From Dillenia suffruticosa (taxonomy: Eukaryota > Streptophyta > Magnoliopsida > Dilleniales > Dilleniaceae): a stretch of 64,000 nt of DNA. The position numbers and the translations under genes are program-made. The stretch spans positions 14,917,001-14,981,000 of the forward strand of contig JAVTVX010000031.1 of assembly GCA_033439265.1 (NCBI GenBank), given 5' to 3'. The notes beneath the pieces were generated by a model, which saw only the letters and a list, made by a program, of their open reading frames with translations, was not told where the DNA came from and ran no database searches. This document shows positions 3,199-63,780 of the stretch, piece by piece (position 1 is the first letter of the stretch; each line of letters begins with the position of its first letter).

Positions 3199-5310
<2,112 letters not shown>

Positions 5311-34822: not shown

Positions 34823-34854
<32 letters not shown>

Positions 34855-35470
34855 TAAAAATCTAATATGTTTTTTTTTTATTTTCTTGTTTGGTTAAAAA
34901 ACAATAATTAATAGAAAATAAAATACCACGCTTCATTATTATTAATAGATATATATATATATAAAAGAAAAAATCATCTTAAATATCATATATCTTAACA
35001 TATTGTGACATATATATTTTAAAAAATCAATAAAAAGTCAAGAGGTTTTTTCATTTTCTTGTTTTGGTTACGAAAACATAATTAATAGAAAATGAGATAT
35101 TTCACTTCATTATCGACATAAGTTGACATAAGTTATCGACCGATAATAATGTTTTGTATGAAAATTGTATTCTCTTTTTTTTTTTTTTTTTTGGTTGTAT
35201 CAAATATTAACATACTTTGTAAATAATGTCATTTATTTAGAAAATGCTAAATATATTTTTGGCAAAGAAAGATAGTAGAAAATGAGAAGTTCTTTTATGT
35301 AATTAAATACTAAAAAGTAAAATTGGATTAAAAAAAAAAACTATTTGTTGGCTGATTTGAAATGTTTTATTTCCTTGACCTATAATAGAATGAACTTTAA
35401 TTTCTTTCTGAAGAGAGATTTCGTTCCTAGGTTCAACTTCTTTACAATTCTCATCAAGAAGGGGAAATTT

Positions 35471-35686
35471 GTTTGCCGGAAAAAATACCCAATATTTTGA
35501 AAATTTCAAAACTTAAAACCTATAAGCAGAAAGAGATAGTGCTAATTGAGTTATAGTTCTATTAAGTAGCAAATTCTTGTTTGCTGGAAAAAATACCCAA
35601 TATTTTGAAAATTTCAAAACTTAAAACCTATAAGCAGAAAGAGATAGTGCTAATTGAGTTATAGTTCTATTAAGTAGCAAATTCTA
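35471..35686 (+). repeat. 108-bp tandem duplication private to copy A
   Basis: A block starting GTTTGCCGGAAAAAATACCC at 35471 is repeated at 35579. Copy B has it once (about 44426-44530), so this duplication arose in copy A after the segmental duplication, or was lost from B. Confidence 0.9.
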
Positions 35687-36489
35687 TTGACACTTTAGAA
35701 ATGTTTATGAATTATAAAAAATTAAAAATTTTCTTAATTTTTATATTTTTAATAACTGAGTTTGAAAACTGAAATTGGATATATCTGATCCCTTTATAAT
35801 TTATGTTCGGTAATAATTGGTAGGAAAAGAATTAACATATGAACTTTAATTTCTTTAAATAATTTTGATTTTTGTTAAGAGAAAATTTTAAAATTAATGA
35901 GTTTGAAAACAGAAAATGTAAACTTAATCCATTTTTTTAGAGAAAAAATTAATATATTTATTTATAGAGAGAAATTAATTTGGGTTTTTTAGAGAGAGAG
36001 AAAAATTAAAATCAATATATTTAACGAGAGATTATATATTATACTTAATGGACCAAATATATCTAGTTCTCCTAATTAAAGTTATAACATTAAAATTATG
36101 ATCCATTCTCTTAAATTATAATTGAAAATATATGATATACTTAACCCACATAAATTTCTAAGTTCCCTCACGATTTCCTCCATCAATTTGATATGAACTT
36201 CGTGCAGGCATTATTTTCAAGTGGAGTATGATCATCTTTACACTTGATTGAATCGAATCTACTGGACAACAATGGTAAAACATTCAGTGTACAAATATCA
36301 AGGAGATTAGAAAATATTTGGACTTGAAGATACCAGAAATGGACATAAATACTAATTTCATTCATATAACTTGAATCTCAAATTTAGATATAAGGAAACA
36401 AGAGCAGACCCTAACTTTTTCCCTTTGGAAGATTGATCATCAGTGATCACTTCCTATACGTAAAGCAAGAACTCTAAGTTTCGGTCTCA

Positions 36490-42798: not shown

Positions 42799-43769
42799 GT
42801 GTCGACCCTCAATATATGGGTCGAGCTCCAACAACAATGTGGTATCCTCGTGGGCCTAGCCCGATAATGGGTATGGACTTGGGCCTGAGCTCTAAGTCAA
42901 GCAGGCATCTACGGCACCAATCTGCGTTCTACTTTTTTTTTCACCATCAGTATTCAGATTTTACTCGATTAATCCAATTTAAACACTGTAAAACCCATTT
43001 TAGGAGTTGGTTCTCCCAAATGTTTTTTGTCATTCCCAAAATTTGAACTCGAGATCTCTGATTAAAGAGATAGAGTGTCCAACCATTCAACTCAAAGGAG
43101 TTTTCGACCTCATAGCTATGACTTTACATTTTGTGATGTTATCTACCAGCCATTTTTCCTTTTAAAACATGGGGTGCCAAGTTATATTTCCCTAATAGTG
43201 AATAGAGGACACAATTTTTGTGTCATCTTGTATTTCAAACGAAGAAATAAGCAGAAAAATAGAGGGAATGAAAGGGAGATAAAATTCTTAGTACTTTTGT
43301 GTATTTAATATATCGAACTAAATCAAATTATGGTATATGTGTGTATATATTAGGTTTGTTACACGAATCGAGTCAAATTTGAACAGCTCGCGAACCGCTC
43401 GATCAGTGGCTCGACTCGACTCAAATTTGACCTTGTTCGAGTCAAGTTTGAGTCGAGTTAAGTAGTAGAATTTTATACTCGAAAACTCGATGAGTAACTC
43501 GAATACATATATTAATATATATTATATATATTTATATATGATTATAATATAAAAATAAAATAATATAATATATTATAAAATAATCGAGAATTTGAACGAG
43601 TTCGAATAGTTTGTTATATAGTCGAGTCGGCCCTATTATTTATTTCTCATTGAGTAAAAAAAATCAAGTTCGAGTAGAGCGATACTTGGGATTGACTTGG
43701 TTCGAATACACCCCTAGTATATATATTTTAAAAAATATATATCTTAAATATCAAATATGTGAACATATT

Positions 43770-43807
<38 letters not shown>

Positions 43808-44746
43808 AAATATTAATAAAAATCTAATATGTTTTTTTTTTATTTTCTTGTTTGGTTAAAAAACAATAATTAATAGAAAATAAAATACCATGCTTCATTA
43901 TTATTAATATATATATATATATAAAAGAAAAAATCATCTTAAATATCAGATATCTTAACATGTCGTGACATATATATTTTAAAAAATCAATAAAAAGTCA
44001 AGAGGTTTTTTCATTTTCTTGTTTTGATTACGAAAACATAATTAATAGAAAATGAGATATTTCACTCCATTATCGACATAAGTTGACATAAGTTATCGGA
44101 CCAATAATAATGTTTTTGTATGAAAATTGTATTCTCTGTTTTTTTTTTGGTTGTATCAAATATTAACATACTTTGTAAATAATGTCATTTATTTAGAAAA
44201 TGCTAAATATATTTTTGGCAAAGAAAGATAGTAGAAAATGAGAAGTTCTTTTATGTAATTAAATACTAAAAAGTAAAATTGGATTAAAAAAAAAAACCTA
44301 TTTGTTGGCTGATTTGAAATGTTTTATTTCCTTGGCCTAATAGAATGAACTTTAATTTCTTTCTGAAGAGAGATTTCGTTTCTAGGTTCAACTTCTTTAC
44401 AATTCTCATCAAGAAGGGGAAATTTGTTTACCGGAAAAAATACCCAATATTTTGAAAATTTCAAAACTTAAAACCTATAAGCAGAAAGAGATAGTGCTAA
44501 TTGAGTTATAGTTCTATTAAGTAGCAAATTCTATTGACACTTTAGAAATGTTTATGAATTATAAAAAATTAAAAATTTTCATAATTTTTATATTTTTAAT
44601 AACTGAGTTTGAAAACTGGAATTGGATATATCTGATCCCTTTATAATTTATGTTTGGTAATAATTGGTAGGAAAAGAATTAACATATGAACTTTAATTTC
44701 TTTAAATAATTTTGATTTTTATTAAGAGAAAATTTTAAAATTAATG
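42799..44746 (+). repeat. Segmental duplication copy B, left part
   Basis: Collinear with 33809-35899 of copy A except for small indels and one copy, rather than two, of the 108-bp block. It ends with TAATG (44742-44746), the target-site duplication of the inserted retrotransposon. It contains shared TA microsatellites of different length (for example about 43775-43802). Confidence 0.85.
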
Positions 44747-47211
44747 TGTAATACCCAAATAAATAAATATAAAAAAAAGGGAAAATTAAAATTAGGGCTT
44801 AAAACCCTAATTTTCTCCCCTCTTTCTCTCTCTCTCTCTCTCTCCCCCTCTCTTCCCTCCCTCTCTCTTTCTCTTTCCCATCTCCCTGTCGCCGCGTCTC
44901 TCTCTCTCCCGCTGCCATCCTCCGCCGTGAAGATCGCCGCGCGCCACCCACAGCCGCTGCGGTTCCTCCCTTCCGCGAGTGAGCCGCTGCAGCTCCTCCT
45001 TGCACGAGCTGCCCGGTGCGAACGCGCAAGCTAGCGCGTGATCTACCTCACGTGAGCACGAGCCCGAGCGCGCCTCACCCTGCACGCCACTGCACGCTCC
45101 TGCACGAGCGCCAGCGACCCCAGCGTGACCCCAGCGCGAGCAGCGCGCGAGCAAGCGCGATCCAGCGCGCGACTCAGCGTGTGACCCTAGCGGGAGCGCG
45201 AGCGCGCTCTAGCGGGCGATCCGGCTCGCGAGGTCCACCAGGCCCGCAGACGCAGCAGCCCACAGGCCCACCAGGCCGCAGACCCAGTAGCCCGCAGGCC
45301 CAGCAGCCCGCATGCCCTAGGCCCGCAAGCCCATTGCTGCCCACGGCCCACTGTGGCCCACGGCTCGCAGCCCAAGACGGCCTGTGACAGTCCGCGAGTC
45401 CCTGCGAAGGTTTTAGACCAAATCGACGGGCGAACGAAAGTTAAATCTGAGATCCGAATAATCCTAGGTGAGAGAAATGAAATATCTTCAACCCTTGAAT
45501 AAACTTTATCAAATTAGGTAGCATTAGTTGGTTTTAGATTCGAATTAAGATTTATTTTGATTTTGGTTATTTACTTATAAATTGAATAAAATTGATGACA
45601 GTGAAATTGTTTATAAATTGAGAAATTTAGGGTTTGTACGAATTTAAGAAAAACGATAAACCCTGAAATAGTCGGAAATTGATGAAAATCGTGATGATTT
45701 GATTAGGTTGGCTTTCTTGGTGACTCGATTGAGGGACGCCTTGTTCTGCGTATTGTGGTGTTATTGGGGAGTGCGCTACCCTCTCCAAAAACTGTGAGTG
45801 AGATTTTTTTCAATGCTTTTGTTTAATATATAAACTCTGTTTTACAACATTTTGATGAATGAGCATGATTTGTCATATGTTTGAAATGTTTTGATTGTTT
45901 TTAAAATTGATTTTTGTGAACCGATGGAGTATCCAAAAAAATTGTGTTGAATTATGAAATTATGCATCCATGTGGTTGAAATGTATAATGTGACATTTTA
46001 TGCTAGATGTTGCATTTGGTTTGTAAACCTGATTTCGGCACATTTTTGATGCAATATTGATTTTAGCCTTGAGGGCTTTGGATTATATTGTTCCGTAGCT
46101 ATGAAGGACACCGTGAGAGACGCTTTAGTGGCGTCCGGATATGCCTAGGCCTGGAGTATCCCACGAGTTGTCGTGATTTGATTATCGACACGGTACTAGC
46201 CAGGTTGAACCCGAAAGGGGGAGAATTTGGATTTGGATATCCTCTCCAAGTCTAGCAGCTGGACGAGGTTCGTTGTCAACGCCGGGGTAGAGAGCACTTT
46301 AAATAAACTTGCATATAACACCCTCAGTGCGCCTGTCATAGGTTGCGGTAGACCCCTGCCAGGACATTTTCGACTAGCAGCTCTATGATTTTAATGACAG
46401 TGCTTTGGATGTATATTTGACTTGATAATGCGTGCAAATGACATATTGTTGAAATGAAAAATATGATGACGTGAAATATGATTTGTATACTTGTATTTTG
46501 ATACTCCAGCTTCACACTCCATATTTGATAATTGCATTGACCCACTCACTCACTGGGTATTCTTCTCCGAGTACTCATCCCTCATTTCCTTTCTTGTTTC
46601 AGAGATAGTGTTTGGCAAGGAGCGTTACTTTTAGGACGCTCAGTATCATTGGGAGATTTGATCTGGATCTGATGAGTTATTGTATATTTCCGCTGTAAAT
46701 TTCGTGAGTTAGTAATTGTATTGGTGATATATATGTATTATGAGATCGATAGACGACCATTGTATAATTTTGGGATGACTGTATAAATATAGACACGTCA
46801 TTGCATAATATTGCATTAAGGCATTTCTGGTGGATTGTGTAAGTATTTAGGGTTGTGTCAAGTCTTAGAAGTGCCCTCTAAGATCGCTCGGTGCCTCCTC
46901 TAAATCACAGGAGGGGCGACTGGCGGCTGTCCATGCTTTTGACGGGGGCATGGCAGTAGAGGTCTGTGGTTAGGTTATTGGAAATTTTTATAGTCTTGCG
47001 TTATCTGGATGTCGGCTATGAGATTGGTCGATTTTTGGAGAGACCGGGATAGCCATTTGATTTTAATACAAGATGATTGTGTTTTATACAGGGTAAATTG
47101 AACTTGGAAAACCTCCGAAATATGGGGAGGTTTTACCCGATTTTATATAAAAATACAGTCGGTATTCAGGATAACGGGCGGCTGTTCACGATCTCGGTTC
47201 GGGGCGTGACA
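44747..47211 (+). repeat. 5' LTR of element 1
   Basis: 2465 bp, from TGTAATACCC to CGTGACA. An inverted-repeat box at 44791-44811 (ATTAGGGCTT and AAAACCCTAA) is followed by a CT tract, then a strongly GC-rich block to about 45415, then AT-richer sequence. It should contain the promoter and polyadenylation signals. Relative to the 3' LTR it keeps about 540 bp (roughly 46016-46553) that the 3' copy has lost. Confidence 0.93.
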
Positions 47212-47218
47212 GTTGGAT

Positions 47219-47231
47219 TGGTATCAGAGCG
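47219..47231 (+). other. Primer binding site (tRNA-Met type) of element 1
   Basis: TGGTATCAGAGC starts 7 bases after the 5' LTR end. This is the classic plant PBS complementary to the 3' end of initiator tRNA-Met, used to start reverse transcription. Confidence 0.9.
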
Positions 47232-47538
47232 ACTTGTTTAAGAGCTATGTAGGAAGAGAGTCTTGGAAACATTCCCGAATATGTTGGTTTTTAAAGTCCT
47301 CAATGCATGAGAGTTTCATATAGTCATGAAGTCCCAGTGCATGGTCATAGGCATATGAGTTCATCTATTTTAGGGGGTTAGATACGGTTGTATCTAACCT
47401 AACTTGCTATATTTTTCTGCTATTGAACTAAGAATCTCATCCTTTTGTGAAGGTAGCCATGCTATGATTAGTCCAAAATTCTTGAACCGTGCCTATTCTT
47501 TTTATGATACTTAATAAGCATCTTTCTCTTGCAGAATT

Positions 47539-48969
47539 ATGCCACCTAGACGTGAAGGAGAGGTGCTAGATTCGCATCGCTTGAAGGTCTGTTAGTGCCA
47601 AATGCACCTCAGGCACCCAAGACTCCACAAGTACCAGAGGACTTAGACGAGCCGGAGGATCGTACCTCGACTCGCGTGCCACCACCGGCACCTACTCAGC
47701 CAGCTGCTCAGGCTGAGACTCCCGTACCCACACTCGACGCCTTTCAGCAGGTGTACGAGTGGTACGCTTCGCATGGGGTCCAGATTCCTCCCCCACCACC
47801 TCCTACACCGGCGCCTACACCTGCAGCAGCGCCAGTTCCTACGACATCGGTTCCACCTCCGGTGGCTGGTCCTTCTACTTTGTCTGAGCCGAGTGAGACT
47901 ACATCGGCTATTCTTAAACGGGTACATGAGTTGACTCAGTTGGTTAAGGAGGCCCGTCAGCTAGGGTGTACAGATTTTACAGGGTTTGGTGATGTTGCGG
48001 CAGCCAAGCATTGGATCAACCGCACTCGTAGGATTCTGACCGATCTGGAGATTGGAGAGGAGCTCTGCCTGAAAGTGGCAGAGCAATTATTAGAGGGAGA
48101 GGCCCTCTCATGGTGGGAGACCCTCACTGATGAGGCGATAGAGCCACTGCGGTGGGACGACTTCCTTCAAGAGTTTGACCGCATATTTTTCCCACTCTAC
48201 CAGCAGGACCATATGAGGTCAGAGTTGGGACGGCTTACATAGGGGTCCAGATCTGTCTCGGAGTACGAGGCAGATATGCGGAGACTCGCCTCATTCGTAC
48301 CAAATCTAGCTACACCTCAGTATTTGCACTTCAAATTTAAGTATGGTCTTAGTCTCAGCATAAAGAAGTATATGACTGTTACTCCACAGTTTACACTGGC
48401 CGAGGTGATAGACTCTGCTCACCGCGTGGAGGCTTTGGTCCGTGCAGAGACTAGGCAGAAAGAGAGCAAAGAGCAGAAAAGAAAGAAAGAGAAGTCTCAG
48501 TTTGCGCAAAACTCAAAGAGGGGCAGGGGATCTAGTTCGCACAGAGACGGATTTGGATCTGGATTTCCTGAGCTGGGACGGGGACAATATTCCCACGAGT
48601 TTAAACAGCCTACTCCGACTCACCCTTCACAGTATACTACTCAGCGGCATCCTTATTGCCGCAGGTATAATAGGTCTCATCCAATAGGAGCTTGTTCAGT
48701 GACGGTCACTTGCTTCCACTGTGGGAAGCCTGAGCATATTAGGAGTTCTTGTCTTAAGTTAGGACTCGGAGGACAGAGTTCACTGAGCCGCACTAGTACT
48801 CCTCGTATGGGACAGCAGGGGCAGGCTGCTCGGCCAGCAGCTTCTACTCCCAGGGTGACCACTGGGAGTAACATAGTGCAGACTCAGGCACGATAACAGC
48901 CTAGGGCACAGGCCCGGGTTTATGCCATGACGCAGGAGGACGCTCAGGCGAATCCCGACATCATCATGG
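47539..48969 (+). pseudogene. gag: gag of element 1 (decayed)
   Basis: Encodes the capsid/nucleocapsid polyprotein. The likely start is ATG 47539 (MPPRREGEVLD), after which one base of frame is lost near 47590. The main frame then runs from 47595. It has a Pro-rich N-terminal part, then the capsid-like region with WWETLTDEA and LQEFDRIFFPLY, interrupted by TAG at 48240. The frame resumes to 48896 (TAA) and includes a basic stretch and the zinc knuckle CFHCGKPEHIRSSC (CX2CX4HX4C). Downstream codons continue in the same frame to the spacer at 48970. The TAG and TAA lie where Gln is expected. Confidence 0.88.
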
Positions 48970-49216
48970 GTACTCCTCCTTCTGATCCTGTAAAATAGGA
49001 TCTTTATTCGTATTTTCACTTCTTTTGAGGATGTCAGCATTGTATCAGTCGTATAGGTATTGTATGTTGTGTTCCCTTTTGTTGATATGATACTACTCTT
49101 GACATTTTTGTACACTGAAGTTGTAAAAGCCTTAGAGGCTCAACTATTTTGACATATATATATACATATCAAGTTTGAAATCATTCTAAGTCTATGTGCA
49201 TTTTGTTCAATGATAG
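48970..49216 (+). other. AT-rich gag-pol spacer, candidate intron, element 1
   Basis: A 247-nt segment between gag and protease. It begins GTACTC after ATGG and ends GATAG before GTACTC, so GT-AG ends are available. It is AT-rich with T-rich stretches and a CTAAG-type branch-site candidate near 49187. The gag frame meets a TAG at 48996, 26 nt inside. 247 is not a multiple of three, and joining 48969 to 49217 puts gag into the frame used by protease and RT. A homologous spacer lies in element 2. Splicing itself is inferred, not seen. Confidence 0.6.
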
Positions 49217-49702
49217 GTACTCTACTTATCTTTGGAATAGATACCCGTATTCTTATTGACACGAGGTCTAACTATTCGTATGTGAGCGATCAATTCTTGC
49301 GACATTCTGACAGGCCGCTCTCACCTTTGGACGAGGAGCTATTAGTCATCACTCCTCTGGGTGAATAGATTATGCGCGACACAGTGTATAGAGAATGTGA
49401 GATCAAAGTTGGGGATACAGTACTGAAAGCAGATCTAATCCCCCTCGCCATGACTGATTTTGATGCCATCTTGGGGATGGATTGGCTACATATGCATCGG
49501 GCTTCTATTGACTGCTTTAAGAAGTAGTTGGAGTTTAGAAAACCCGATCAGCCAGTGTTAATTTTTTAGGGCAAGAGGCGGATTTTACCCCGCTGTGTCA
49601 TTTCAGTTTTGGAGGCCAGACGCATGATTCGCCACGGGTGTGTGGCTTACCTAGCTCATATCATTGACACTACTGCTTAGGGACCGAGACTAGAGGATGT
49701 CC
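49217..49702 (+). pseudogene. Protease region of element 1 (decayed)
   Basis: Aspartic protease and linker to RT, in the same frame as the RT segment at 49705. The expected active-site triad Asp-Thr-Gly reads Asp-Thr-Arg (in LIDTRSNYSYVS). The DFDAILGMDWL segment typical of retroviral-type proteases follows. TAG stops occur at 49366, 49525, 49567 and 49678. For 49366 and 49678 the related element 2 has Gln. It is inactive as written. Confidence 0.8.
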
Positions 49703-49704
49703 CA

Positions 49705-51194
49705 GTGGTACAGGACTTTTCGGATATTTTTCCCGAGAAGCTACCCGGATTACCACCGGTTCGGGAGTTTGACTTTGAAATCGATTTAGCTCCGGGGACT
49801 ACCCCTATCTCTATGCCGCCATACAGGATGGCGCCGGCTAAGCTGAGGGAGCTTAAGGTCCAACTGCAAGAGTTGCTGGATAAAGGGTTTATCCATCCTA
49901 GCACGTCCCCTTGGGACGCTCCAGTGCTATTTGTAAAGAAAAAATACGGCTCATTAAGATTGTGTGTGGATTACAGACAACTTAATCGGGTGACTGTGAA
50001 TAACAGATATCCACTGTCTCGCATAAATGATTTATTTGATCAATTGCAAGGTGCTCAAGTTTTCTCGAAGATTGATCTTCGATCGGGATATCATCAGTTG
50101 CGGATTAGGAGTCAAGACGTGCCAAAGATAGCTTTCCGCACTCAATACGGGCACTACGAATTTCTAGTCATGCCGTTTGGGCTGACTAATACCCCCGCTG
50201 CATTCATGGATTTGATGAACCGAATTTTTCATGATTATTTGGACCGGTTCGTTATTGTTTTTATTGATGATATTTTAGTCTACTCGCGGAGTGATGATGA
50301 GCATACTCAGCACCTTAGGGTGATTCTGCAAACTCTTCGTGAGAGACAACTTTATCCAAGTTCACCAAGTGTGAATTTTGGCTGCGGCAGATTGGTTTTC
50401 TTGGCCACATAGTTTCTGCGGAGGGTATTTTTGTCGATCCTCAGATCTGGTCGATGCCATTACGAGATAGGAACAGCCACAGACAGTGACTGAGATCAGG
50501 AGTTTTCTTGGTCTAGTCGGGTATTACCGCAGATTTGTAGAGGGCTTTTCTCGAATTGCTGCTCCGTTATCTAAATTGACGCGAAAAGATATCAAGTTTG
50601 TATGGGATGATCGTTGTGAGGTGAGCTTTCGGGAGCTCAAATAGCGATTGACGTCCGCTCCGATTCTAGCCCTTCCCACGAGTAGTCGAGAGTATGTGGT
50701 GTACAGTGACGCCAGCAGGCAGGAATTGGGTTGTGTATTGATGCAGAATGGTAGAGTTATCGCCTATGCTTCGCGACAGTTAAAGAAGCATGAGGTGAAT
50801 TATCCTACGCACGATTTCGAGTTGGCGGCCATAGTCTTTGCGCTAAAGATATGGCGTCACTATTTATATCAGGTCACATGCAGAGTGTTTACAGATCACA
50901 AGAGTCTGAAGTATTTGTTCACTCAGAGGAAGCTGAATTTGAGGTAGCGGAGATAGTTAGAGCTGCTAAAGGATTATGAACTCATCATGGACTATCATCC
51001 GGGCAAGGCTAATGTAGTGGCTGATGCCTTAAGTCGGAAGTCGTCTTCCTCTGCTCAGACTACCGAGAGTACTTATCTCTCATGTTTATTGGGACTCCGA
51101 GCCTTGGGAGTCAGGTTGGTTAGTGATGATCAGGGAGCTATACTAGTCAGATTTGAGGTTCGGCCGAGTTTGCTCGACCGTATTAGGGAGTTTT
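49705..51194 (+). pseudogene. Reverse transcriptase and RNase H of element 1
   Basis: The RT core is an intact 235-codon stretch (49705-50412) with [38 protein letters not shown] and the catalytic box FIDD in [12 protein letters not shown] frameshift near 50360-50400 moves the rest to another frame. There RNase H is recognisable ([35 protein letters not shown]), with its catalytic acids present. TAG stops lie at 50468, 50642, 50945, 50954 and 51194. Identification of the domains is certain; the copy is defective. Confidence 0.92.
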
Positions 51195-51196
51195 AG

Positions 51197-52573
51197 CAGA
51201 GTGATGAAGAGCTCCGATGTATTTATGAGAAAGCCAGCGGAGGTGATATTGACGACTTTAGAGTTCGCAAGGATATACTGTTGGTTTTTCGAGATCAAAT
51301 ATATGTACCAGCAGATAGTGCTCTTCGTAGGGCTATTCTCGAGGAGGCCCATTCATCTGCCTATGCTTTACATCCCGGTAGTACTAAAATATACCGCACC
51401 ATCAGAAACAGTTATTGGTGGTCAGGTATGAAACGGGAAATTGCAGAATTTATTGCTCGTTGCCTTGTATGTCAGCAGATAAAGGTTGAGCACCAGCGTC
51501 CAGCTGGCACTTTGCAGCCCCTTCCCATTCCTGAGTGGAAGTGGGAGCATATCACGATAGATTTTGTAGTGGGATTACCGCGGACTTCGGCACAACATGA
51601 TGCTATTTGGGTGATAGTTGACCGACTTACTAAGTCCGCACACTTCATCCCGATTAGGAGTGATTACTCACTTGAGGCGTTGACACGCCTCTATATTGAT
51701 ATGATTGTGAGACTGCATGGGGTTCCAATGTCGATAGTATCAGATCGAGACCCCAGATTTACATCCTGTTTTTGGCCAGTCTACAGGAGGCTTTGGGTAC
51801 TAAACTAAATTTCAGCACAGCGTATCACCCCCAAACAGATGGTCAGTCAGAGAGGACCATTCAGACTTTAGAGGACATGCTTAGGGCATGTGTTATGGAT
51901 TTCCGGGGGAGTTGGGATCGGCATCTTCCGTTAATGGAATTCGCCTATAATAATAGCTATCAGGCGAGCATTGGCATGCCACCTTATGAGGCATTGTATG
52001 GGAGGAAGTGTCATACCCCGTTGTGCTGGGATGAGGTTGGTAAGCGATGTTGAGCTGGTAGAGGAGACAAAGGAGAAAGTGAGGATTATCCGTACGCGGA
52101 TGAAAGCTGCCCAGGATAGACAGAAATCCTATGCATATCGTAGGCGGCGACCTCTAGAGTTTACTGTGGGATACATGGTATTCTTAAAAATATCTCCCTT
52201 GAAGGGAGTCATTCGATTTGGGCAGCGAGGGAAATTGAGTCCCAGGTATATTGGATCCTTCCGTATCCTTGACAGCGTCGGAAGTGTAGCATATAAATTG
52301 GAGCTGCCAGCAGACCTATCGCGTATTCACGATGTATTTCATGTCTCAGTACTTAGGAGATATCAGCTAGATCCCTCACACATTTTAGAAGCTCCGCCAG
52401 TTGAGCTTCGAGAGGACTTGAGCTTACCTGTCCAGCCCATGACTATTTTTGATCGACAGGTCAGGAAGTTACGGAGCAAAGAGATACCTCTTGTTAGAGT
52501 TTTGTGGAGGAGCGACCAGGTCGAGGATCAGACCTGGGAGCCTGAGGAAGCCATGAGAAGACAACACCCCTAA
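51197..52573 (+). pseudogene. Integrase and chromodomain-like tail of element 1
   Basis: The HHCC zinc-binding region has His in [10 protein letters not shown] and the pair CLVC near 51459-51470. The catalytic core follows, with [19 protein letters not shown] and [13 protein letters not shown] giving the D,D,E residues. A frameshift near 51770 (one base short) and another near 52040-52050 split it. The C-terminal part has GKLSPRYIGSFRIL and IHDVFHVSVLR, then the chromodomain-like VRVLWRSDQVEDQTWEPE. Such tails steer chromoviruses to heterochromatin. The frame ends in TAA at 52571 where element 2 has Gln. Confidence 0.92.
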
Positions 52574-52621
52574 CTTTTCTCTGTATAGTTTCTTTTAGTC
52601 TCGAGAACGAGACTTGTTTTT

Positions 52622-52635
52622 AGGAGGTTAGAAAA
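52622..52635 (+). other. Polypurine tract of element 1
   Basis: AGGAGGTTAGAAAA lies immediately before the 3' LTR start. It is the expected primer for plus-strand DNA synthesis, interrupted by two T residues. Element 2 has the equivalent AGGGGGTTAGAAAA. Confidence 0.8.
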
Positions 52636-54697
52636 TGTAATACCCAAATAAATAAATATAAAAAAAGGGGAAAATTAAAATTAGGGCTTAAAGCCCTAAT
52701 TTTCTCCCCTCTTTCTCTCTCTCTCTCTCTTTCCCCCTCTCTTCTCTCCCTTTCTCTTTCTCTTTCCCATCTCCCCGCCACCGCGTCTCTCTCTCTCCCG
52801 CTGCCATCCTCCGTCGTGAAGATCGCCGCGCTCCACCCACAGCCGCTGCGGCTCCTCCCTTCTGCGAGTGAGCCACTGCAGCTCCTCTTTGCACGAGCTG
52901 CCCGGTGCGAACGCACGAGCTAGCGCGCGATCTCCATCGCGCGAGCGCGCGATCTCCATCGCGCGAGCGCGCGATCTCCCTCGCGTGAGCGCGCAACCCT
53001 TCCTGCACGAGCACGAGCCCGAGCGCGCCTCACCCTGCACACCACTGCACGCCACTGCACGCTCCTGCACAAGCGCCAGCGACCCCAGCGTGACCCCAGC
53101 GCAAGTAGCACGCGATCCAGCTCGCGAGCGCGCTCCAGCGCGCGAGCTAGCGCCCGAGCCAACGCGACTCAGCGTGTGACCCAGCGTGTGACCCAGGGCC
53201 AGCGCTTCAGCGCGCGATCTGGCTCGCGAGGCCCACCAAGCCCACAGACCCAGCAGCCTACAGGCCCACCAGGCTGCAGACCCAGCAGCCCGCAGGCCCA
53301 GCAGCCCGCAGGCCCCAGGCCTGCAAGCCCATTGCGGCCCACGACCCACTGTGGCCCACGGCTCGCAGCCCGAGACGGCCTGTGACAGTCTGCGAGTCCC
53401 TATGAAGGTTTTAGACCAAATCGACGGGTGAACGAAAGCTAAATCTGAGATCCGAAGACTCCTAGGTGAGAGAAATGAAATCTCTTCAACCCTTGAATAA
53501 ACTTTGTCAAATTAGTTAGCATGGTTTTAGATTCGAATTAAGATTTATTTTGATTTTGGTTATTTACTTATAAATAGAATGAAATTGATGATAGTGAAAT
53601 TGTTTATAAATTGAGAAATTTAGGATTTGTACGAATTTAAGAAAAACGATAAACCCTGAAATAGTCGGAAATTGATGAAAATCGTGATGACTTGATTAGG
53701 TTGGCTTTCTTGGTGACTCGATTGAGGGGCGCCTTGTTCTGCGTATTGTGGTGTTATTGGGGAGTGCGCTACCCTCTCCAAAAACTGTGAGTGTGATTTA
53801 TTTCAATATTTTTGTTTAATATGTAAACTCTGTTTTATAACATTTTGATGAATGAGCATGATTTGTCATATACTTGAAATGTTTTGACTGTTTTTAAAAT
53901 TGATTTTTGTGAACCGATGGAGTGTCCAAAAAAATTGTGTTGAATTATGAAATTATTCATCCATGTGGTTGAATTGTATAATGTGTCATTGTGTTGAAAT
54001 GTATAATGTGCCATTTTATGCTAGATGTTGAATTAGAACCGGGTATTCTTCCCCGAGTACTCACCCCTCATTTCCCTTCTTGTTTCAGAGATAGTGTTTG
54101 GCAATGAGCGTTGCTTTTAGGATGCTCAGTATCATTGAGAGATTTGATCTGGATCTGAGGAGTTATTGTATATTTCAGCTGCAAATTTCGTGAGTTAGTA
54201 ATTGTATTGGTGATATATATGTGTTATGAGATCGATAGACGACCATTGTATAATTTTGGGATGACTGTATAAATATGGACACGTCATTGCATAATATTGT
54301 ATTGAGACATTTCTGGTTCATTGTGTAAGTACTTGGGGTTGTGTCAAGTCTTAAAAGTGCCCTCTAGGATCGCTTAGTGCCTCCTCTAAATCACAGGAGG
54401 GACGACTGGCGGCTGTCCATGCCTTTGACGGGGGCATGGCAGTAGAGGTCTGTGGCTAGGTTATTGAAAATTTTTATAACCTTGCGTTATCTGGATGTCG
54501 GCTGTGAGATTGGTCGATTTTTGGAGAGGCCGGGATGGCCATTTGATTTTAATACATGATGATTGTGTTTTATACAAGGTAAATTATACTTGGGAAACCT
54601 CCGAAATATAGGGAGATTCTGTCCGATTTTCTGTAAAAATACAACCGGCATTCAGGATAACGGACGGTCGTTCACGATCCCGGTTCGGGGCGTGACA
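52636..54697 (+). repeat. 3' LTR of element 1
   Basis: 2062 bp, TGTAATACCC to CGTGACA. It lacks about 540 bp present in the 5' LTR (junction near 54030-54034) and carries a 22-bp triplicated GC-rich unit at 52922-52987 that the 5' LTR has once. LTRs are identical at insertion, so these and many substitutions arose later. The open frames on both strands are GC-rich low-complexity artefacts. Confidence 0.92.
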
Positions 54698-57501
54698 TAA
54701 TGAGTTTGAAAACAGAAAATGTAAACTTAATCCATTTTTTTAGAGAAAAAATTAATATATTTATTTTTAGAGAGAAATTAATTTGGGTTTTTTAGAGAGA
54801 GAGAAAAATTAAAATCAATGTATTTAATGAGAGCATATATATTATACTTAACGGACCAAATATATCTAGTTCTCCTAATTAAAATTATAACATTAAAATT
54901 ATGATCCATTCTCTTAAATTATAATTGAAAATATATGATATACTTAACCCACATAAATTTCTAAGTTCCCTCACGGTTTCCTCCATCAATTTGATATGAA
55001 CTTCGTGCAGGCATTATTTTCAAGTGGAGTATGATCATCTTTACACTTGATTGAATCGAATCTACTGGACAACAATGGTAAAACATTCAGTGTACAAATA
55101 TCAAGGAGATTAGAAAATATTTGGACTTGAAGATACCAGAAATGGACATAAATACTAATTTCATTCATATAACTTGAATCTCAAATTTAGATATAAGGAA
55201 ACAAGAGCAGACCCTAACTTTTTCCCTTTGGAAGATTGATCATCAGTGATCACTTCCTATACGTAAAGCAAGAACTCTAAGTTTCGGTCTCACTATTTTG
55301 TTGTACGCATAATTATCTCAACTCTAGGACTAATTTCGCTGTATTTATATAGGAAAGATTTATGAAACATTTGTTCGTTTGAACCCTTGACAAAGAGACA
55401 TGCGGCGAGAGTCTGGCACTTGGAGGTATTGGCGGATGGTGTCCTTGACAGCCTGCACTTTCACCCAGCTATTGAATCTCAATACAAATGGAGGAAAGTC
55501 CTTTTCCGGGATTATTACCAAATCTGTTTCTTGAGAGAGTAGAAGTTGGGTCCCTGGAGGTATGTGATAAGAACCCAAAGTACGATTAGAGTCATCTAAT
55601 CTCTGGCGATCAAAGGTGAGTATTTGATAGTGCTCCTGGAGTCGGGTCCTTTCTCTTATTCGAGCTTTCAAGTCACCGACTGAGTCAGTGTGGCTCATCC
55701 TGAAACGATGTTCGACGTCACCATGGATCACGATGATATCCATGACTTGTTCAAAAGCGCAATGGAAGCGAGGAAATGTTCTTCGGAAACAGTGGCCAAC
55801 CGCAGTCGCAGTTTCCTTGCCTCGTAGGGTGTTGGGAAGTAGGTGTTTTGCTGAAGGTTTCTCCCCCTCTCGGATCAAGAGAGAGAGAGAGAACAAAGCA
55901 AGTGATGCGAAAAAAGGAGGTGGGGTGTTGCCCATTTTTATAGGTTTGAGACAAAGTAAATTTTTAGATGGAAAGTGAATGATTAATTAAAAAATGTGGA
56001 GGCGTTGCCTATTTCAGAACTTAGTTAATTGCTTGACATGCCATTAGTTAATTGGTTGACATGCCAAAACTTGCACCTGGTACTTCTTATTAGGATGGAA
56101 AGTGAATGATTAGTAACATACCATTTTTGAAGTACAGATTGATGCCCCAGTTAAATTAATCTCGCAATCGTATGTCTGTGTGATTGATTACAAGTCAAAA
56201 GAATCATCGTGTTAATGAATTCAATCACTCGAACATAAGTTAAACAAATTACCAAATTTAAAAGATTTGTGCTCAATCATATAGTTAATTAACCTTATGA
56301 TTCTTTTGATTCGCCCTCAGTTGTACTTGTGTGATTGAGTTAATTATGCTGTCAATGATATTCAAAAATTTAATAAGCAATGCAAATAAAATAATTTCAA
56401 ATGACAACCAAACAGTGGAAATTTACCATTTCTAATGCTTTCCCACTTTCGGTGGTTTTGATGGACTTGATCATGCATGTCTTAACATTAGTACTTCTAA
56501 GGGAAAGATCTTCTTTGTTTTTTTTTTTGACTTCTAATTTATCAAAACTGTCTATTCTCTCTAGGGTGCGATCGGGTTTGGTGAAAGATACAAATGTTAA
56601 CTATGCATTATTCTTGTTTGGATATATCTTATATTAACTTATTAAATTTTGGGATTTTAAAAGGACAAATCTCTAACAACATGGCTGTATTGTACTAAAC
56701 AAGATCGAACCAGCCAGTTCAACTTGAAAATGGGTGAACCAGCCCCTTCACAATCTGAGATTATAAAGTAATGTTAATCTGTATGTTGTTAAATTGATTT
56801 TCTCTTAATTTTATCGTTGTAGTTCTATAATTAAATATAAAATAATTTATATGGGCTTTCTACTGTAATGAGCGAGTATTTTACTAGTAATATAATATAA
56901 TACAAGTTAAGCATCTGAGGGTAGATATGTGATCTCCCTCGCTTAAGTTAAAACAAAATCATACATAGAATCAATGCTATCAAAACCGTACTCGATACTA
57001 ATGACTCACTAGTTCACCAATTTTATTGACGGTTCAATCCTGGTTCGAAAGAAATAGAACTTGCTGCAAGTTTCCTGCCTTTTAGTCATGAAAGATGTAA
57101 TGCAGTGATGAAACCAAAAATCATAACGTTGGACTTCGTTAAGGTTGCTCTCCACAATGCATTCGTAGATGCCGCAATCTGTTATATTAGGCATTCTATT
57201 GTCATATCTCAACAACACCAATATGAACATTACTTTTCCAGCACCTTGGCTTTATTTATCTCTCTCTCTCTCTCTCGCTCTGTTTTCTTTAAGCACAATT
57301 ATTGACATTGGAATAAGTCCAACGTAAAGTGTTTTTTTTTTTAATTTTATTTTTGGAAAAGATGATCAAACTTTGGTTTGAGCAAATAGGATTGAATGTT
57401 TTAAATTACTTAAAAGGATTAAAGTGCATGTTCTCAATAAGTCTGACTTCTCAACACTTTTTTCCATGATTTTAACATTTCCAATTACTTAAAAGGACCA
57501 G
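54698..57501 (+). repeat. Segmental duplication copy B, right part
   Basis: Starts with the second TAATG (54698-54702) and is collinear with 35895 onward of copy A, very similar throughout. It carries UBL-B. At about 57178-57217 it has 40 unique bases where copy A has 38378-39040. It ends at ACCAG (57497-57501), followed by element 2. Copy A continues uninterrupted past ACCAG at 39311-39315. Confidence 0.88.
55293..55935 (-). pseudogene. UBL-B, frameshifted copy of UBL-A
   Basis: Nearly identical to UBL-A, with the same MGNTPPPFF start, leader and first ubiquitin-like domain. A 2-bp deletion at about 55399-55400 (copy A has ACATATGCGG, copy B ACATGCGG) shifts the frame in the second domain after PDSRR. 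The shifted frame stops at 55360, giving 191 residues and losing about the last 35 normal ones, including the end of the second fold. The original stop codon is still visible at 55293-55295. The protein could still be made as a truncated form, but the simplest reading is a recent pseudogene. Confidence 0.85.
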
Positions 57502-59916
57502 TGTCACGTCCCAAACCGGAATCGTGAACAGCCGCCTGTTGCCCTAGGATGCTGGCTATATTTTTACAGAAAATCGGGCAGAATCTCCCCATAAATCAGA
57601 GGTTTCCCGTGTACAATTAAACCTGTATAATCAAAATCAACCTGTAATTTAAATAAATGGCCATCCCGGCCTCCCCAAAATCAACAAACATCACCGCCAG
57701 CATCCAGAACAACGCAAGGCTACAAGTTTCTAGCAGTTCTAGCCACAAACCTCTACTGTCATGCCCAACTAGAGCATGAACAGCCGCCACACCGAGTGGA
57801 CCTAAATTTTATGTAAGATACAATAATTCTCCCAAATAACATTCACATACGTACAATCGCCTCAATGCAAAGGAAATATGATAGTTAAATTATACAGTCA
57901 TCCCAAAATAAGTACATGACCAACTACGGACCTCAATGTCAAGATCTCGCAGGGTCGAAACTAAATTAGAAGTAAATCTCACCGTCAGAACACCAAATTC
58001 GCTCTAGAGCCTGTAACGCCGCTCTATCACAATCAACCTGTCTGAGGAGGAAAAATAGAGGGGTGAGTATCATGGGAAGAAACTCAGTGAGTGAGGGGAA
58101 TAATATCAAACATAAATAGCGTGGGTGAACCATTGGAGTGTCAAATAACATCAATCGAAATAAAATTCGCATTTCACAGCAAAACATGATATGTCTAGCA
58201 ATTTGAAATCATTTAAATCAGTCACACGATAACAAGCATGTATGCATCCATTTAAAATCAAGTAATATCAGAGCGAGCCAAAGATTGTCCTGGCAAAGGT
58301 CAACCGTGACCAAAGACAGGCGTATCGGGGGTTTTATTATGCATAGACTTTAAAACGTTTTCTACCCCGACGTTGGCCATGAGTTAGCTGGGGCCAACTC
58401 ATCAACATGTATAGGACCCCGCCCGGTGCTAGACGGTGGCGTCACACACGTCCTCCCCCTACGTGGGTTCAACCGGCCGCGCCTATAGCCTTTAGAATAA
58501 ATGACGTTTGCGGATACCTCCTGCAGAAGCATATCCGGGCAACCCGTGTCTCTACAAACGCCCTTCGTAGCTACGGAATCATCATAGTATCACAAGGGCA
58601 CAACGCCCCATAGTATCACAAGGGCACAACGTCCCAGGGCACAACGTCCCACAAGTATTACCACATCATCATATAACTAGTGGATATCCAACCCACGTAG
58701 TTCATCAAAAACATTTTAAATTTGCGTGCCAATACGTCTTTTTAATTCATTTCAAAACAGCATATCAATGTAACGGTATAAAATGAAATTTATACATTTT
58801 CAAGTAATGGCACAATTATTGTTTCATTTCAAACAATGGATGCATAGTCATTGTAAATATAATTCAAGACACTCCAATAATCACAAAACAGATTTAAAAT
58901 TCAATGTCATACGTCAGATCAATGCATATCAAAAGCATGTTTTATCAAAAACACGGCAGAAAACAGGTTTTTACTATTTTATGCAAGAGATTAGAGTCCC
59001 ACTCACAGTCTACGGGAGGGAAGTCACTCCCTACTGACAAGCCAAATCGGACCTGACCGCTCGAGTCTCCAAAAGATCAACCTAAATCAGATTATCAACA
59101 TTTAATATCAAATAAAAGCCAAATCAGGGATTTTCAATTTTTTTTTCCTTCTAAATTTATACCACCTAATTTACAAAACTTCATTATAGATTCTCGTTTC
59201 CTCAGTTTCGAATCATCTGACTCACCAATGGTCAAGTTTCTAATATTTTTCATTTTTTTTGTCTAATTTTCCTCGAATTTCACACATTTCAATATATTAT
59301 GTAACTCTCGATCTAAATTCGACTTAATTTCGATAGAATTAATTCAAATGTTGAAAAGGTTGTATTTCTCTCACCTAGGGTTTCTCAGATTTCTGGATCT
59401 AGCTTTCGTTCACCCGTCAACCTGGTTTAAAACCTGTAATGTTTACCATTTGAAACACAAGTGAGAAATTTAAGTCAAATTACCAATAATTTTTGAAACC
59501 CTAGTACGTACACGAAATCGAGAATTCATTTACCTACGCAAAGGGTCACGGGTCGTCGTGGCTCACGGGCCATGGGCTGGACTGGGCCGTGGGCCATACT
59601 GGCCTGCGGGCTTGGACGGGCTGTCGGGCCTGGTGGGCCCGTGGGCTTGCTAGGCCTGCGGGCTGTAGTGCGTGCGCAGGCACTGGTGTACGCGCGCAGT
59701 TGCGTATCTCCACGGAGGGAGAGTAAGTTGCGGGAGAAAGAAGAAGAAGCAGAAAAAGAAGAAGAAGAAGGAGGAGGAGAAGGAGAAGGAGGAGTAGGAG
59801 AAGAAGAAGAAGGAGGAGAAGGAGAACCTGTGGCGGCGGTTGCGCGGCGGCGAGGGCACGGGAGGAGAAGCGCGGCAGTGCAGAAATGAAATCGCCACGG
59901 AGGAGAGAGAGAGAAA

Positions 59917-59957
<41 letters not shown>

Positions 59958-60019
59958 AAATTAGGGCTTTAAGCCCTAATTTTTAATTTCAGTTTTTTTT
60001 TTTTTATTTGAGTATTATA
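57502..60019 (-). repeat. 3' LTR of element 2
   Basis: Plus-strand reading starts TGTCACG, the complement of the CGTGACA end, and finishes at the complement of TATAATACTCAAATAAA, close to the TGTAATACCCAAATAAA start of element 1. It has the same inverted-repeat box (59960-59980) next to an AG/CT tract and a GC-rich block at about 59530-59860, but the GC-rich sequence differs from that of element 1. Repeats of CACAAGGGCACAACG lie at about 58596-58650. Confidence 0.88.
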
Positions 60020-60033
60020 TTTTCTAACCCCCT
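60020..60033 (-). other. Polypurine tract of element 2
   Basis: On the minus strand AGGGGGTTAGAAAA precedes the 3' LTR start directly, matching the element 1 tract and position. Confidence 0.75.
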
Positions 60034-60067
60034 AAAAACAAGTTTCGTCCTCGAAACTAAAAGAAGG

Positions 60068-61330
60068 CTATACAGAGAAAAGTTGGGGGTGTTGTCTTCT
60101 CATGAATTCCTCAGGCTCCCAAGCCTGTTCCTCGACCTGGTCGCTCCTCCACAAAACTCTAACAAGAGATATCTCTTTGTTCCGTAGCTTTCTGACCTGT
60201 CGATCCAAAATAATCACAGGCTGGACAGGTAAGCTCAAGTCCTCTCGCATTTCTATCGGCGGAGGCTCCAAAATGTGTGAAGGATCTGAGATATACTTCC
60301 TCAACACTGACACATGGAAGACATCATGGATCCGAGATAGTTCATCTGGCAGCTCTAGCCTGTATGCCACGCTCCCAACCCTACTGAGGATATGGAACGA
60401 GCCAATGTACTTGGGGCTCAACTTGCCCCGCTGCCGATGTCGTACTAGTCCCCTCAAGGGAGAAATCCTCAAGAACTCCATATCGCCCACCTCAAACTCT
60501 AAAAGTCGGCGTCTTCGATCCTCATATGCCCTCTATCTGTCTTGGGCGGCTTTCATTCGCTCACGGATAACCTTAATTTTATCCTTTGTTTGCTCAATCA
60601 ACTCAACGCTGTTGAGACGTCGCTCTTCGACTTCATCCCAGCACATCGGGGTGCGGCACTTCCTGCCATATAGTGCCTCATATGGGGGCATCCCTATACT
60701 GGCTTGATAACTGTGATTATATACGAATTCGACCAGTGGAATGTGCCGATCCCAACTACCTCGAAAATCCATCACACATGCCCTCAGTATGTACTCAAGG
60801 GTCTAAATGGTCCTCTCAGACTAGCCATCCGTCTGAGGATGATATGCTGTACTGAAGTTCAATTTAGTACCCAATGCCTCCAGCAACTTGGGCCAAAATC
60901 TAGATGTGAACCTGAGGTTTCTATTTGAAACAATCGACACAAGCACCCCGTGAAGCCAAACTACAGTATCAATGTAGAGACGTGCCAACGCCTCTAAGGA
61001 ATAGTCACCGCGGATAGGGATAAAATGTGCAAATTTGGTGAGTCGATCGACAATCACCCAAATCGCATCATGCGTGAAGAAGTCCGCGGCAACCCCATCA
61101 CGAAGTCCATAGTAATATACTCCCATTTCCACTCAGGAATGGGAAGAGGCTGCAGTGTGCCCGCTGGACGCTGATGCTCAGCCTTCACCTATTGGCGAGC
61201 TAAACATCTTGCCACAAAATCCTCAATTTCTCGTTTCATGTTAGGCCACCAATAACTATCCCGAATAGTCCAATACATCTTGGTACTACCCGGATGAATG
61301 CTTAAGTTGAGGAGTGTGCCTCCTCTAGTA
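60068..61330 (-). pseudogene. Integrase and chromodomain-like tail of element 2 (decayed)
   Basis: The C-terminal 140-codon frame (60068-60490) is intact, with GKLSPKYIGSFHIL, IHDVFHVSVLR and VRVLWRSDQVEEQAWEPE, ending QLFSV. Upstream pieces show WDEVEERR, the [10 protein letters not shown] segment and the catalytic region with [16 protein letters not shown]. The second catalytic Asp region reads VSNRNLRF, so the Asp is Asn here. The zinc-binding pair has lost its second Cys (CLAR). In-frame TAG codons at 60533-60535, 60803-60805, 60821-60823 and 61189-61191 (plus-strand positions of their complements) fall where element 1 has Gln. Confidence 0.85.
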
Positions 61331-62110
61331 TGGCCTTGCGGAAATCAATGTCAACTGAAATACAATTCCGTTCTCCAAACACTATCTATCCATTTTCTCG
61401 GAATCCGAAGTCTCTGACATAGTTGAACAAGGTCTGTCTGTCTCATATCTGGCTAATGATGCTTCTCACACATCATTAACCACACTGACTCCTAATGTAC
61501 GGAGTCCCACCAATAAAGAGGGGTAAGCACTCTCTCTGCCGTCTGAGAGTAAGATACTTAGCATGCTCCTCAACACTCTGCAAGCTGACTAGGATGTCAT
61601 CAGTGGACACGATAACAAATCGATCTAGAAAATTCATAAAAGACCCGATCTATTCGGTTCATAAATGCAGCTAGGACATTCGTCAGCCCAAATGGCATGA
61701 CCAAGGACTCAAAGTGTCCACGCTGATACGGAATGCGATTTTTGGACAGATCCTCGACCCTAACCCGTAACCGAGTATAACGCGATCGAAGATTTATCTT
61801 CGAAAAAACCTTATCACCGAGAAGCTGATCAAACAAATCATCGATGTGGGAAAATGAATATCAATCCTTGGTAGTGACCTTAGTCAACTGTCAATAATCC
61901 ATAACAAGTTTAAGTATTCTATATTTCTTCTTTACAAATTATACCGAAGCACCCTAAGGTGTGGTGCTTGGATGAATGAATTATTTATCAAACAATTTCT
62001 GTAGTTAAATCTTGAGCTCTCTCAGCTCAAATGGTACCATTCTATATAGCGGAATAGAAATAAGAGTAATCCTTAGAGCCAGATCAATCTCAAAATTGAA
62101 CTTCCGAATC
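61331..62110 (-). pseudogene. Reverse transcriptase remnant of element 2
   Basis: A 78-codon frame at 61600-61836 retains FDQLLGDKVFSKINLRS and [15 protein letters not shown], recognisable RT motifs. The catalytic FIDD box is not intact. The RNase H region between RT and integrase is largely missing. RT N-terminal sequence at about 61840-62110 is present but broken by frameshifts. Confidence 0.75.
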
Positions 62111-62118
62111 AATGATAA

Positions 62119-62651
62119 TTAGGGTGGCTCCTCATGAAATACTTCCGGAAACTTCTGTACCACCAGAATCTCATCAAGTCTCGGATTCTGTATGGTGGTA
62201 TCGATCATATGTGTCAGGTCTATCATACATCCCCGACGTATTATACGTCTGGCTTTCCTCACTAATACAATACCACGGGGTAACACCCGTCTCTCACTCG
62301 TAAACGTCAGTGGTGGCCCTTCAGGCCTCCAAAAATCGTCTTTCTTGATAAAACAGTCTAAGAAAACTCTATAAGTATACAATTAATCTATCTCTAAGAT
62401 GGCATCGAAATCTGTCATATCCAGTAGGATCAGATTTACTCTCAGCACTGTCCCACCTACCATGACATCATACTCTCTATATACGAATTCTCTAACCAAC
62501 TGCTCACCAAGAGGAGCGACAACTAATAGCTCCTCATCAAGTAACGATAACAGCCCATCCGACTGTTGAGCGAAAGAAACTCTCACATAGAAATAGTTCG
62601 ATCTTGTGCCAATAAGAACACAAACGTCGACTCCATATATTTCCATAGCAC
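62119..62651 (-). pseudogene. Protease and linker of element 2 (decayed)
   Basis: Two adjoining frames give the protease (VCVLIGTRSNYFYV, then LDEELLVVAPLGEQL and TDFDAILEID) and the linker to RT (RRIIRRGCMIDLTHMIDTT). The active-site triad reads Gly-Thr-Arg instead of Asp-Thr-Gly. Its Arg is shared with element 1. Gln in PLGEQL and in DTTIQ marks sites that are TAG in element 1. Confidence 0.8.
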
Positions 62652-62872
62652 CAAGATTCAAAAAATATTAAATAAAATAAATAAAAATAAAAATAAAAAT
62701 AAAAAGAATTTACTAAGAGTACGGAAAGAATAGGGATATATACCTGTATATCAAAATAGTTAAACCTCTAGTACTGTAACAATCATGTCCGTACATATCA
62801 TCACAAAATACACGATTTCAAAAGAAACAGTGCATAAGGACCTCTAAACGGAAGGATCCGCAGGAGGATTAC
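62652..62872 (-). other. AT-rich gag-pol spacer, candidate intron, element 2
   Basis: A 221-nt counterpart of the 48970-49216 spacer. The donor side is ATGG then GTAATC, and the gag TAG stop (62844-62846) is 26 nt inside, exactly as in element 1. The interior shares a CTAGAGG-TAACTATTTTGA-TATA stretch with element 1. The acceptor side reads TTG before GTGCT instead of AG, which looks like a point loss of the acceptor. A TTTTTA-repeat expansion lies at about 62667-62706. Confidence 0.6.
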
Positions 62873-63780
62873 CCATGATCATATCTGGGTTCACCAGAGC
62901 GTTCTCCTGAGTCACCGCATACACAAGGGCGTGCACCCTCAACTAATCTCGTGAAAACCTAATACTATATTGCTCCCGGCTGCAGTCCGTGGAGCAGTGT
63001 TACTAGAACGCGTAGGTGTTCCCTGCTGTTCTACACGTGGTGTATTCCGATAACTCGAAGCCAACTAACCTCCAAGTCACAAATCAGGGTATAAAGTCCT
63101 GATATGTCCCGGCTTCTCATAGTAGAAGCATGTAATAAGTGCTCTACATTTTTATTCGAGCGTGGTGCTTGCCACATATGCGGCAAAGAAAAAGTCGTTG
63201 AGCAGTAGCCTAGCTCATGGCACTAGGACTGGTGATATAACCACCGGAGATATGGTGCCGCTGAAACTCCGTGAAATATCTGCGGTCGAATTCCATTAGG
63301 AAATCACTTTGCCGCAATGACTTATAGCCTCATCGCAAATAGCCTCCCATCAAGTGAGGGTTTCCCTATCGAATAGTCTCTCAATAACTCGTAGACTATA
63401 CTCCTCGCGCAAGCCTAGATCTATCAAGAGCCGTCGTGTTCAGTTGACTCAGTGCTGTGCTACCGTAGCATCACCAAGTCCAAAAATCTGTGCATCCCAT
63501 CTGTCGAGCTACCGTGACTAGCTGGGTCAACTCGGGGATGCACCTAAGTATGGCGCAATTATTATAACTCAGATTCGAAACTGTAAGAAGAACGGCCACC
63601 GATGGACGATTTGGTGCCGCTTGAGTAAGAACTACTGTAGAAGAAATAAGTGCAACCGTAGATATCGGCGTTGCCATCAAAGGTGATGGGGTGACATCTG
63701 GACCCCATGTGCCGTGTACCACTCGTACACTTGCCCGAAAATATCAAAAGTAAATAGTGAAGACGTTGGTATAATAGTCG
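62873..63780 (-). pseudogene. gag: gag remnant of element 2
   Basis: Near 62873-62940 the end of gag is recognisable (VYAVTQENALVNPD, like VYAMTQEDAQANPD in element 1). A fragment at about 63471-63722 includes ELTQLVTVARQMGCTDF, matching ELTQLVKEARQLGCTDF of element 1. The rest is broken by frameshifts. The N-terminal part and primer site are missing at the junction with the LTR fragment at 63781. Confidence 0.75.

Follow-up and report, generated by a model that had tools for sequence, protein, structure and literature searches.

Between gag and pol of a Tekay-like chromovirus family in Dillenia suffruticosa lies a segment that is probably a spliceosomal intron, a reading to which we assign a probability of about 75% from the sequences compared. 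In this reading, unspliced RNA would encode Gag, spliced RNA would encode Gag-Pol, and some of the spliced RNA would have been reverse-transcribed. The segment occupies positions 48970 to 49216 of the window, the whole stretch of 64,000 nucleotides that was analysed, in a copy here called element 1. A preliminary description of the same DNA had proposed an intron at this place. That proposal is supported in part: by the presence of the segment throughout the family, by boundaries that are exact against relatives in other plants, by base composition and by copies lacking exactly the segment, while the argument from the reading frame fails for most copies.

According to the proposed mechanism, the intron would be a phase-1 intron that splits a glycine codon where Gag meets protease. 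Unspliced RNA would serve both as genomic RNA and as the message for Gag, which would stop about nine codons into the intron. Part of the RNA would be spliced at a weak donor to give Gag-Pol, and a small part of the spliced RNA would be packaged and reverse-transcribed, yielding intronless copies. We infer that splicing would set the ratio of Gag to Gag-Pol.

Element 1 and the candidate intron

Element 1 and a neighbouring relative comprise the following features (strand in brackets):

44742-44746 and 54698-54702: target duplication TAATG, 5 bp, in the flanks of element 1
44747..54697 (+): element 1, a decayed full-length Tekay-like LTR retrotransposon (from LTR self-match and flanks)
44747..47211 (+): 5' LTR, two pieces of which match the 3' LTR at 85.8% and 92.1% identity
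47219..47230 (+): primer binding site TGGTATCAGAGC, after the 5' LTR
47539..48998 (+): gag, broken (from frame reading)
48969..48975 (+): left copy of the 7-bp direct repeat GGTACTC
48970..49216 (+): candidate intron, GT...AG, 247 nt here and 246 nt in 31 of 53 copies
48996..48998 (+): TAG, 26 nt into the segment, which would end Gag on unspliced RNA; a TAG in 52 of 53 copies
49186..49190 (+): CTAAG, putative branch site, proposed in the preliminary description
49210..49212 (+): ATG in the protease frame just before the 3' end of the segment, a possible internal start; in 53 of 53 copies
49216..49222 (+): right copy of the direct repeat GGTACTC
49217..52582 (+): pol, broken, with protease, RT, RNase H, integrase and a chromodomain-like tail (extent from the match to the protein P0005)
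52636..54697 (+): 3' LTR (from LTR self-match)
about 57502-63763 (-): decayed relative of element 1, DNA identity 67% and 77% in two pieces
62652..62872 (-): homologous 221-nt spacer at the same place in this second family, starting GTAATC and ending TTG (no AG)

Element 1 itself is a dead copy, with stops in gag and protease. Its gag had been described as open up to 48969; the frame in fact contains TAG at 48240-48242 and TAA at 48894-48896, and the frame that leads into the segment differs from that of the ATG region at 47539. Several further stops lie in the protease region. The primer site TGGTATCAGAGC, presumably of the tRNA-Met type, follows the 5' LTR both in element 1 and in L039, a young copy. 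Directly before the gag ATG of element 1, at 47523-47541, an acceptor-like sequence was observed, TTTCTCTTGCAG followed by AATTATG; the leader of the intronless copy L076 matches that of L039 unbroken, so nothing has been removed at this site in L076. Elsewhere in the window, a remnant similar to the element 1 LTR (84-89%) occupies 8090-9686, and a repeat pair about 8.9 kb apart (34041-35902 and 43023-44749), perhaps the LTRs of another element, lies beside element 1.

Reading of the sequence bore out the 247-nt length of the segment, its GT start and AG end, the TAG 26 nt into it and the CTAAG. The repeat at its ends, described earlier as GTACTC, extends to 7 bp. The T-rich and AT-rich character was likewise confirmed in 30 copies, with 40.6% T against 22.5% in the flanks and 33.9% GC against 52.6%. 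Such a contrast with exons is given as a criterion for plant introns in the part of the source available (PMC3735527), and the base composition of the segment is that of a plant intron. In its GT...AG ends and its U-rich, AT-rich make-up the segment resembles a U2-type spliceosomal intron. The putative branch site reads CTGAG in L003 and TTGAG in L008.

The splice sites were scored with a matrix that we assume to be valid and on which both values depend. The donor TGG/GTACTC scored -0.8 bits, 8th or 9th among 38-40 GTs in four of the five copies scored, the fifth (L037) having lost its GT; the acceptor is moderate (1.7 bits, 3rd or 4th among 43-46 AGs). A weak donor suits partial splicing, yet it also weakens the case for splicing. 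An alternative donor 165 nt upstream, with the same acceptor, scored slightly better in five copies and was rejected, as it is unused in 35 intronless copies. Two other roles for the segment were ruled out: a stable RNA fold, as folding of the region is no more stable than that of 100 shuffles (z -0.49), and a known structured RNA, as Rfam gave no match at E values up to 0.1.

Distribution of the segment among copies

The junction region (401 nt) was searched against the 596 Mb genome, and all 40 scored matches cover nearly the whole of it at 93-100% identity. The loci L001-L038 (n=38), chosen by similarity to the segment, represent 30 distinct copies. A second sample, chosen by gag alone, comprised 40 places, of which 14 were known segment carriers and 26 were fetched; 23 of the latter have the segment and three lack it, giving 37/40 with and 3/40 without. 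The 53 distinct segment-bearing copies (30 + 23) have segments of 225 nt (1 copy), 244 (8), 246 (31), 247 (3), 248 (8), 249 (1) and 252 (1), so that the length modulo 3 is 0 in 34 copies, 1 in 11 and 2 in 8. Among them GT is kept in 52, AG in 51 and both in 50. Every copy has two to six stops within the segment in the gag frame and at least two in any frame.

It had been argued that removal of the segment brings gag into the frame used by protease and RT. This is true of element 1 and does not extend to the family, as a 246-nt segment, present in 31 of 53 copies, does not shift protease relative to gag and the argument fails for most copies. It is stops, not frame offset, that separate gag from the protease frame in the family. 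Because the relation of the two frames differs among copies, readthrough or a fixed frameshift is a misfit, whereas an intron or a separately started pol fits. Readthrough or a fixed frameshift over the segment was rejected, given stops in every copy and lengths in all three frames.

Scoring the alignment of copies for GT-AG, as suggested in the preliminary description, had a divided outcome, since both ends are kept in 50 of 53 copies but not above the background of such dinucleotides. In 30 copies the GT and the AG of the segment are each kept in 29, against means of 26.6 for 51 nearby GTs and 26.6 for 59 nearby AGs, and 29 of these GTs and 34 of these AGs are kept as well as the segment ends. 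The two ends are not clearly conserved above their neighbours, and their conservation was dropped as an argument for an intron. Low polymorphism at the segment ends (transversions at 0/29 and 1/30 sites) was also left unused, because the copies had mostly been picked by segment similarity.

The relative of element 1 on the opposite strand belongs to a second, dead family. The spacers of the two families are homologous, with a local score of 51 against a maximum of 45 in 300 shuffles (44 without the first 30 nt). The second family is rich in copies: among 40 scored matches to its junction, 37 cover the whole query, one covers all but two bases and two cover 370 of 401 nt. The spacer starts with GTAATC and ends with TTG in all ten copies read at both ends; this TTG tells against a conserved AG, but since pol is dead in the second family, no selection on an acceptor is expected there. 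Its protease motif is IGTRS, not IDTGS, in 7/7 copies read, whose frame is broken by a shared stop (four copies) or a shared shift (three copies), and an ATG lies near the start of protease. Despite the dead protease, the other scored copies of this family, to which L128-L133 belong, share 91-96% identity with the window copy across the junction; the family is possibly non-autonomous and mobilised in trans.

The segment is thus a shared, homologous and precisely bounded feature of the family, beyond chance. The small insertion private to element 1 that had been named as another possibility, or a recent degeneration of this copy alone, would agree with its decayed state, but is refuted by the segment in 52 other copies and in the sister family.

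Relatives in other plants and classification

As relatives, the best 120 of 7954 scored proteins were taken, 75 of which match both gag and pol. A Gag match reaching the boundary and a Pol match starting there were found in 42 of these 75 listed relatives, and in 42/42 of those scorable both matches point to one and the same glycine and leave no residue between them; the remaining listed relatives were unscorable at the boundary, several being pol-only or odd gene models. The segment splits the codon of this glycine, fixed in the continuous relatives, in phase 1. Listed relatives covering at least 92% of pol are 51-74% identical and have the same domain order. These proteins, which we take to be of the Tekay/Del type, are like the Dillenia family in domain order and unlike it in that Gag-Pol is uninterrupted at the boundary.

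In a tree of RT (117 rows, without clade labels), the family groups with P0010 (cacao) and with P0005 and P0014 (Cuscuta) at 99% SH-aLRT. P0005, a continuous protein of 1612 aa from short assemblies, was left out of the splicing evidence. Two protein-database searches with gag gave two weak matches each, so the Gag of close relatives was not comparable. The C-terminal tail of pol aligns gap-free with P0029, P0042, P0057 and P0117, for which PF00385 is listed at the level of the whole protein; in the pol of L039 the chromodomain PF00385 was not called by Pfam. By Pfam alone, the same pol has one RNase H region, covered by two overlapping models, and no second RNase H (aRH) was found in it. Ogre/Tat elements carry such an aRH domain and have no chromodomain. 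In the Tekay clade a single continuous gag-pol frame is usual, not defining; in the Dillenia family this frame is interrupted in the 53 segment-bearing copies and continuous at the junction in 35 intronless ones.

Young copies

Four young copies, whose LTR parts are 98.6-99.5% identical over 1734-1842 nt, have the segment. In L039 both gag (493 codons) and pol (1148 codons) are open from stop to stop, while pol of the other three is broken by stops or a shift. In four copies other than element 1, gag is an open frame of about 480-486 aa, ending ...IIMGTPPSDPVE followed by TAG. Pfam recognised Retrotrans_gag and a borderline CCHC knuckle in the gag of L035, and protease, RT, RNase H, integrase zinc-binding, a weak integrase core and an SH3-like domain in the pol of L039. 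Since the pol frame is complete in a young interrupted copy, there must be some way of expressing pol across the segment.

The youngest group was searched with 301 nt of young gag alone. Of the 40 places scored, 31 have at most one mismatch over the 301 nt and nine are at 99%; the near-identity of the 31 marks a very recent burst. The distance between gag and protease probes is exactly 254 nt (8 + 246) in 25/40 places, and the spacer starts at each of the 20 junctions read directly. At least 34 of the 40 are interrupted (the 25, eight that were read, and L028), three are intronless and three unread; the intronless places were recognised by coincidence with matches to the intronless junction, one of them solely in this way. 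Most places in the latest burst carry the segment.

Copies lacking exactly the segment

The three copies of the gag-selected sample without exactly the segment (L062, L065 and L069) lie in LTR elements, as seen in larger stretches of the same places (L075, L074 and L076). In L076 the LTR parts share 93% identity across 1946 nt, and apart from the segment its gag and pol match those of L039. About 1.76 kb of pol is additionally missing from L075, and L074 has two family gag regions in tandem, both intronless. The two L074 junctions, at 3900 and 9638, have the same orientation and are about 5.7 kb apart, in regions only 88% alike over 3.3 kb. With a natural intronless junction as genome query, 40/40 scored matches were continuous across it; 35 of the 40 were read (four known and 31 fetched), and in all 35 no base is lost or gained between the exons. 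Nine of the 31 fetched copies are open through the 1001 nt read. In each of the two samples for which gag was the sole criterion, intronless copies make up 3/40.

From 985 flanking columns a tree was built for 31 interrupted copies together with 35 intronless ones, L075 entering shortened because part of its pol is absent. Because copies had been chosen for the tree by state, the proportions of the two states in it are meaningless, but their intermixing is still informative. This tree needs 13 changes of state. After removal of two long branches (L078 and L099), the 64-row tree again needs 13 (13-14 in bootstrap trees), of which at least five are imposed by branches with good support; a single change suffices in 0/200 bootstrap trees. 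Shuffled labels gave a mean of 21.8 changes, and 0/500 shuffles were as low as 13, so the state is also inherited in part; being clustered on the tree, intronless copies may also multiply or exchange. The second family does not place the root firmly, interrupted and intronless copies occur together in each of the main branches, and the intronless L074b lies inside the young, fully supported group. Judged from these trees, the state of the segment has changed several times within the family.

Splicing, deletion or separate start of pol

Given the 7-bp repeat GGTACTC, splicing and deletion between the repeats give an identical product. L035 contains, within 3239 nt, 56 exact repeat pairs (7-11 bp) spaced 100-400 nt apart, and among 34 copies compared four other deletions of at least 40 nt were listed, none recurrent and none between those repeat pairs. 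Two copies carry deletions with short shared ends: the loss in L075, which is outside the four listed, has GCAGA at its ends, and a 78-nt deletion in L074a shares about 3 bp. These are single events; the loss of the segment is not. Deletions of this kind, with 3-5 bp shared ends in single copies, nonetheless lower the intron reading and raise an explanation in which the segment is an untranslated spacer, pol is started separately at the ATG before protease, and the segment is lost from some copies through deletion or template jumping from one 7-bp repeat to the other. Such an explanation, which we consider unlikely, draws on the presence of that ATG in all 53 copies, on the repeat at both ends, on the weak donor and on the second family, which has an ATG near the protease start but no AG. 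It has to accommodate the finding that none of the 55 other repeat pairs was deleted in 34 copies, while the segment was lost in 3/40 of each gag sample. Moreover, in the element 1 sequence four ATGs intervene between the Gag stop and the ATG before protease, the region has no unusual fold, and its composition is intron-like.

A further explanation, clearly less probable than a separate start of pol, is that two old layouts coexist and that recombination of co-packaged RNAs shuffles the segment, its boundaries being those of one old insertion with a 7-bp target duplication. The repeat does resemble a target-site duplication, both layouts occur in old and in young branches, and all-intronless groups exist, though intronless copies were sampled on purpose. 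On the other side stand the composition of the latest burst, with only three intronless places against at least 34 segment-bearing ones, and the young interrupted copy with its full pol frame. In addition, for GT...AG to appear in one of the eight equivalent registers is, by our estimate, a coincidence of about 3%. We favour the intron reading, and as a tentative extension, held at rather less than even confidence, the family may live in two forms: an interrupted master making Gag and Gag-Pol from two RNAs, and continuous copies repeatedly seeded from spliced RNA, some with an open junction frame.

Comparison with known systems

It has long been asked by what means plant LTR elements produce Gag in excess of Pol; a chromovirus intron at the Gag-protease boundary, if real, would be an answer reached independently in another lineage. 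If splicing occurs, the intronless copies would record, with no need for expression data, that RNA was spliced and that spliced RNA was packaged, and the same genome scan could be applied to other element families. If the family does live in two forms, the presence of the intron would be a polymorphism of a recently active element, recording how frequently spliced RNA is packaged.

In the accessible part of a 2025 review, plant LTR elements are described as generally without introns, with Ogre and EVADE as exceptions (PMC12786077), and no Tekay or chromovirus intron was reported among the literature matches listed, a scope mostly outside subscription papers. The Ty1/copia element Bianca has, in the text available, two ORFs separated by a short region of 172 bp on average; it is alike in its separated ORFs but belongs to another superfamily, and no splicing is reported for it there (PMC6317226). 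In BARE1 and EVADE, both Ty1/copia, alternative splicing of the element RNA adjusts the products, subgenomic RNAs being described for EVADE, in the excerpts available (PMC3735527, PMC12786077). The spliced RNA of BARE1, as far as those excerpts describe it, encodes only Gag, whereas in the Dillenia family splicing would yield Gag-Pol. The subgenomic RNAs of EVADE are likewise Gag-only. The principle of the intron is alike in Ogre, a Ty3/gypsy element of the Tat lineage and hence of another lineage; in the Dillenia family the candidate intron lies between Gag and protease, in an element with a chromodomain-like tail and a primer site presumably of the tRNA-Met type.
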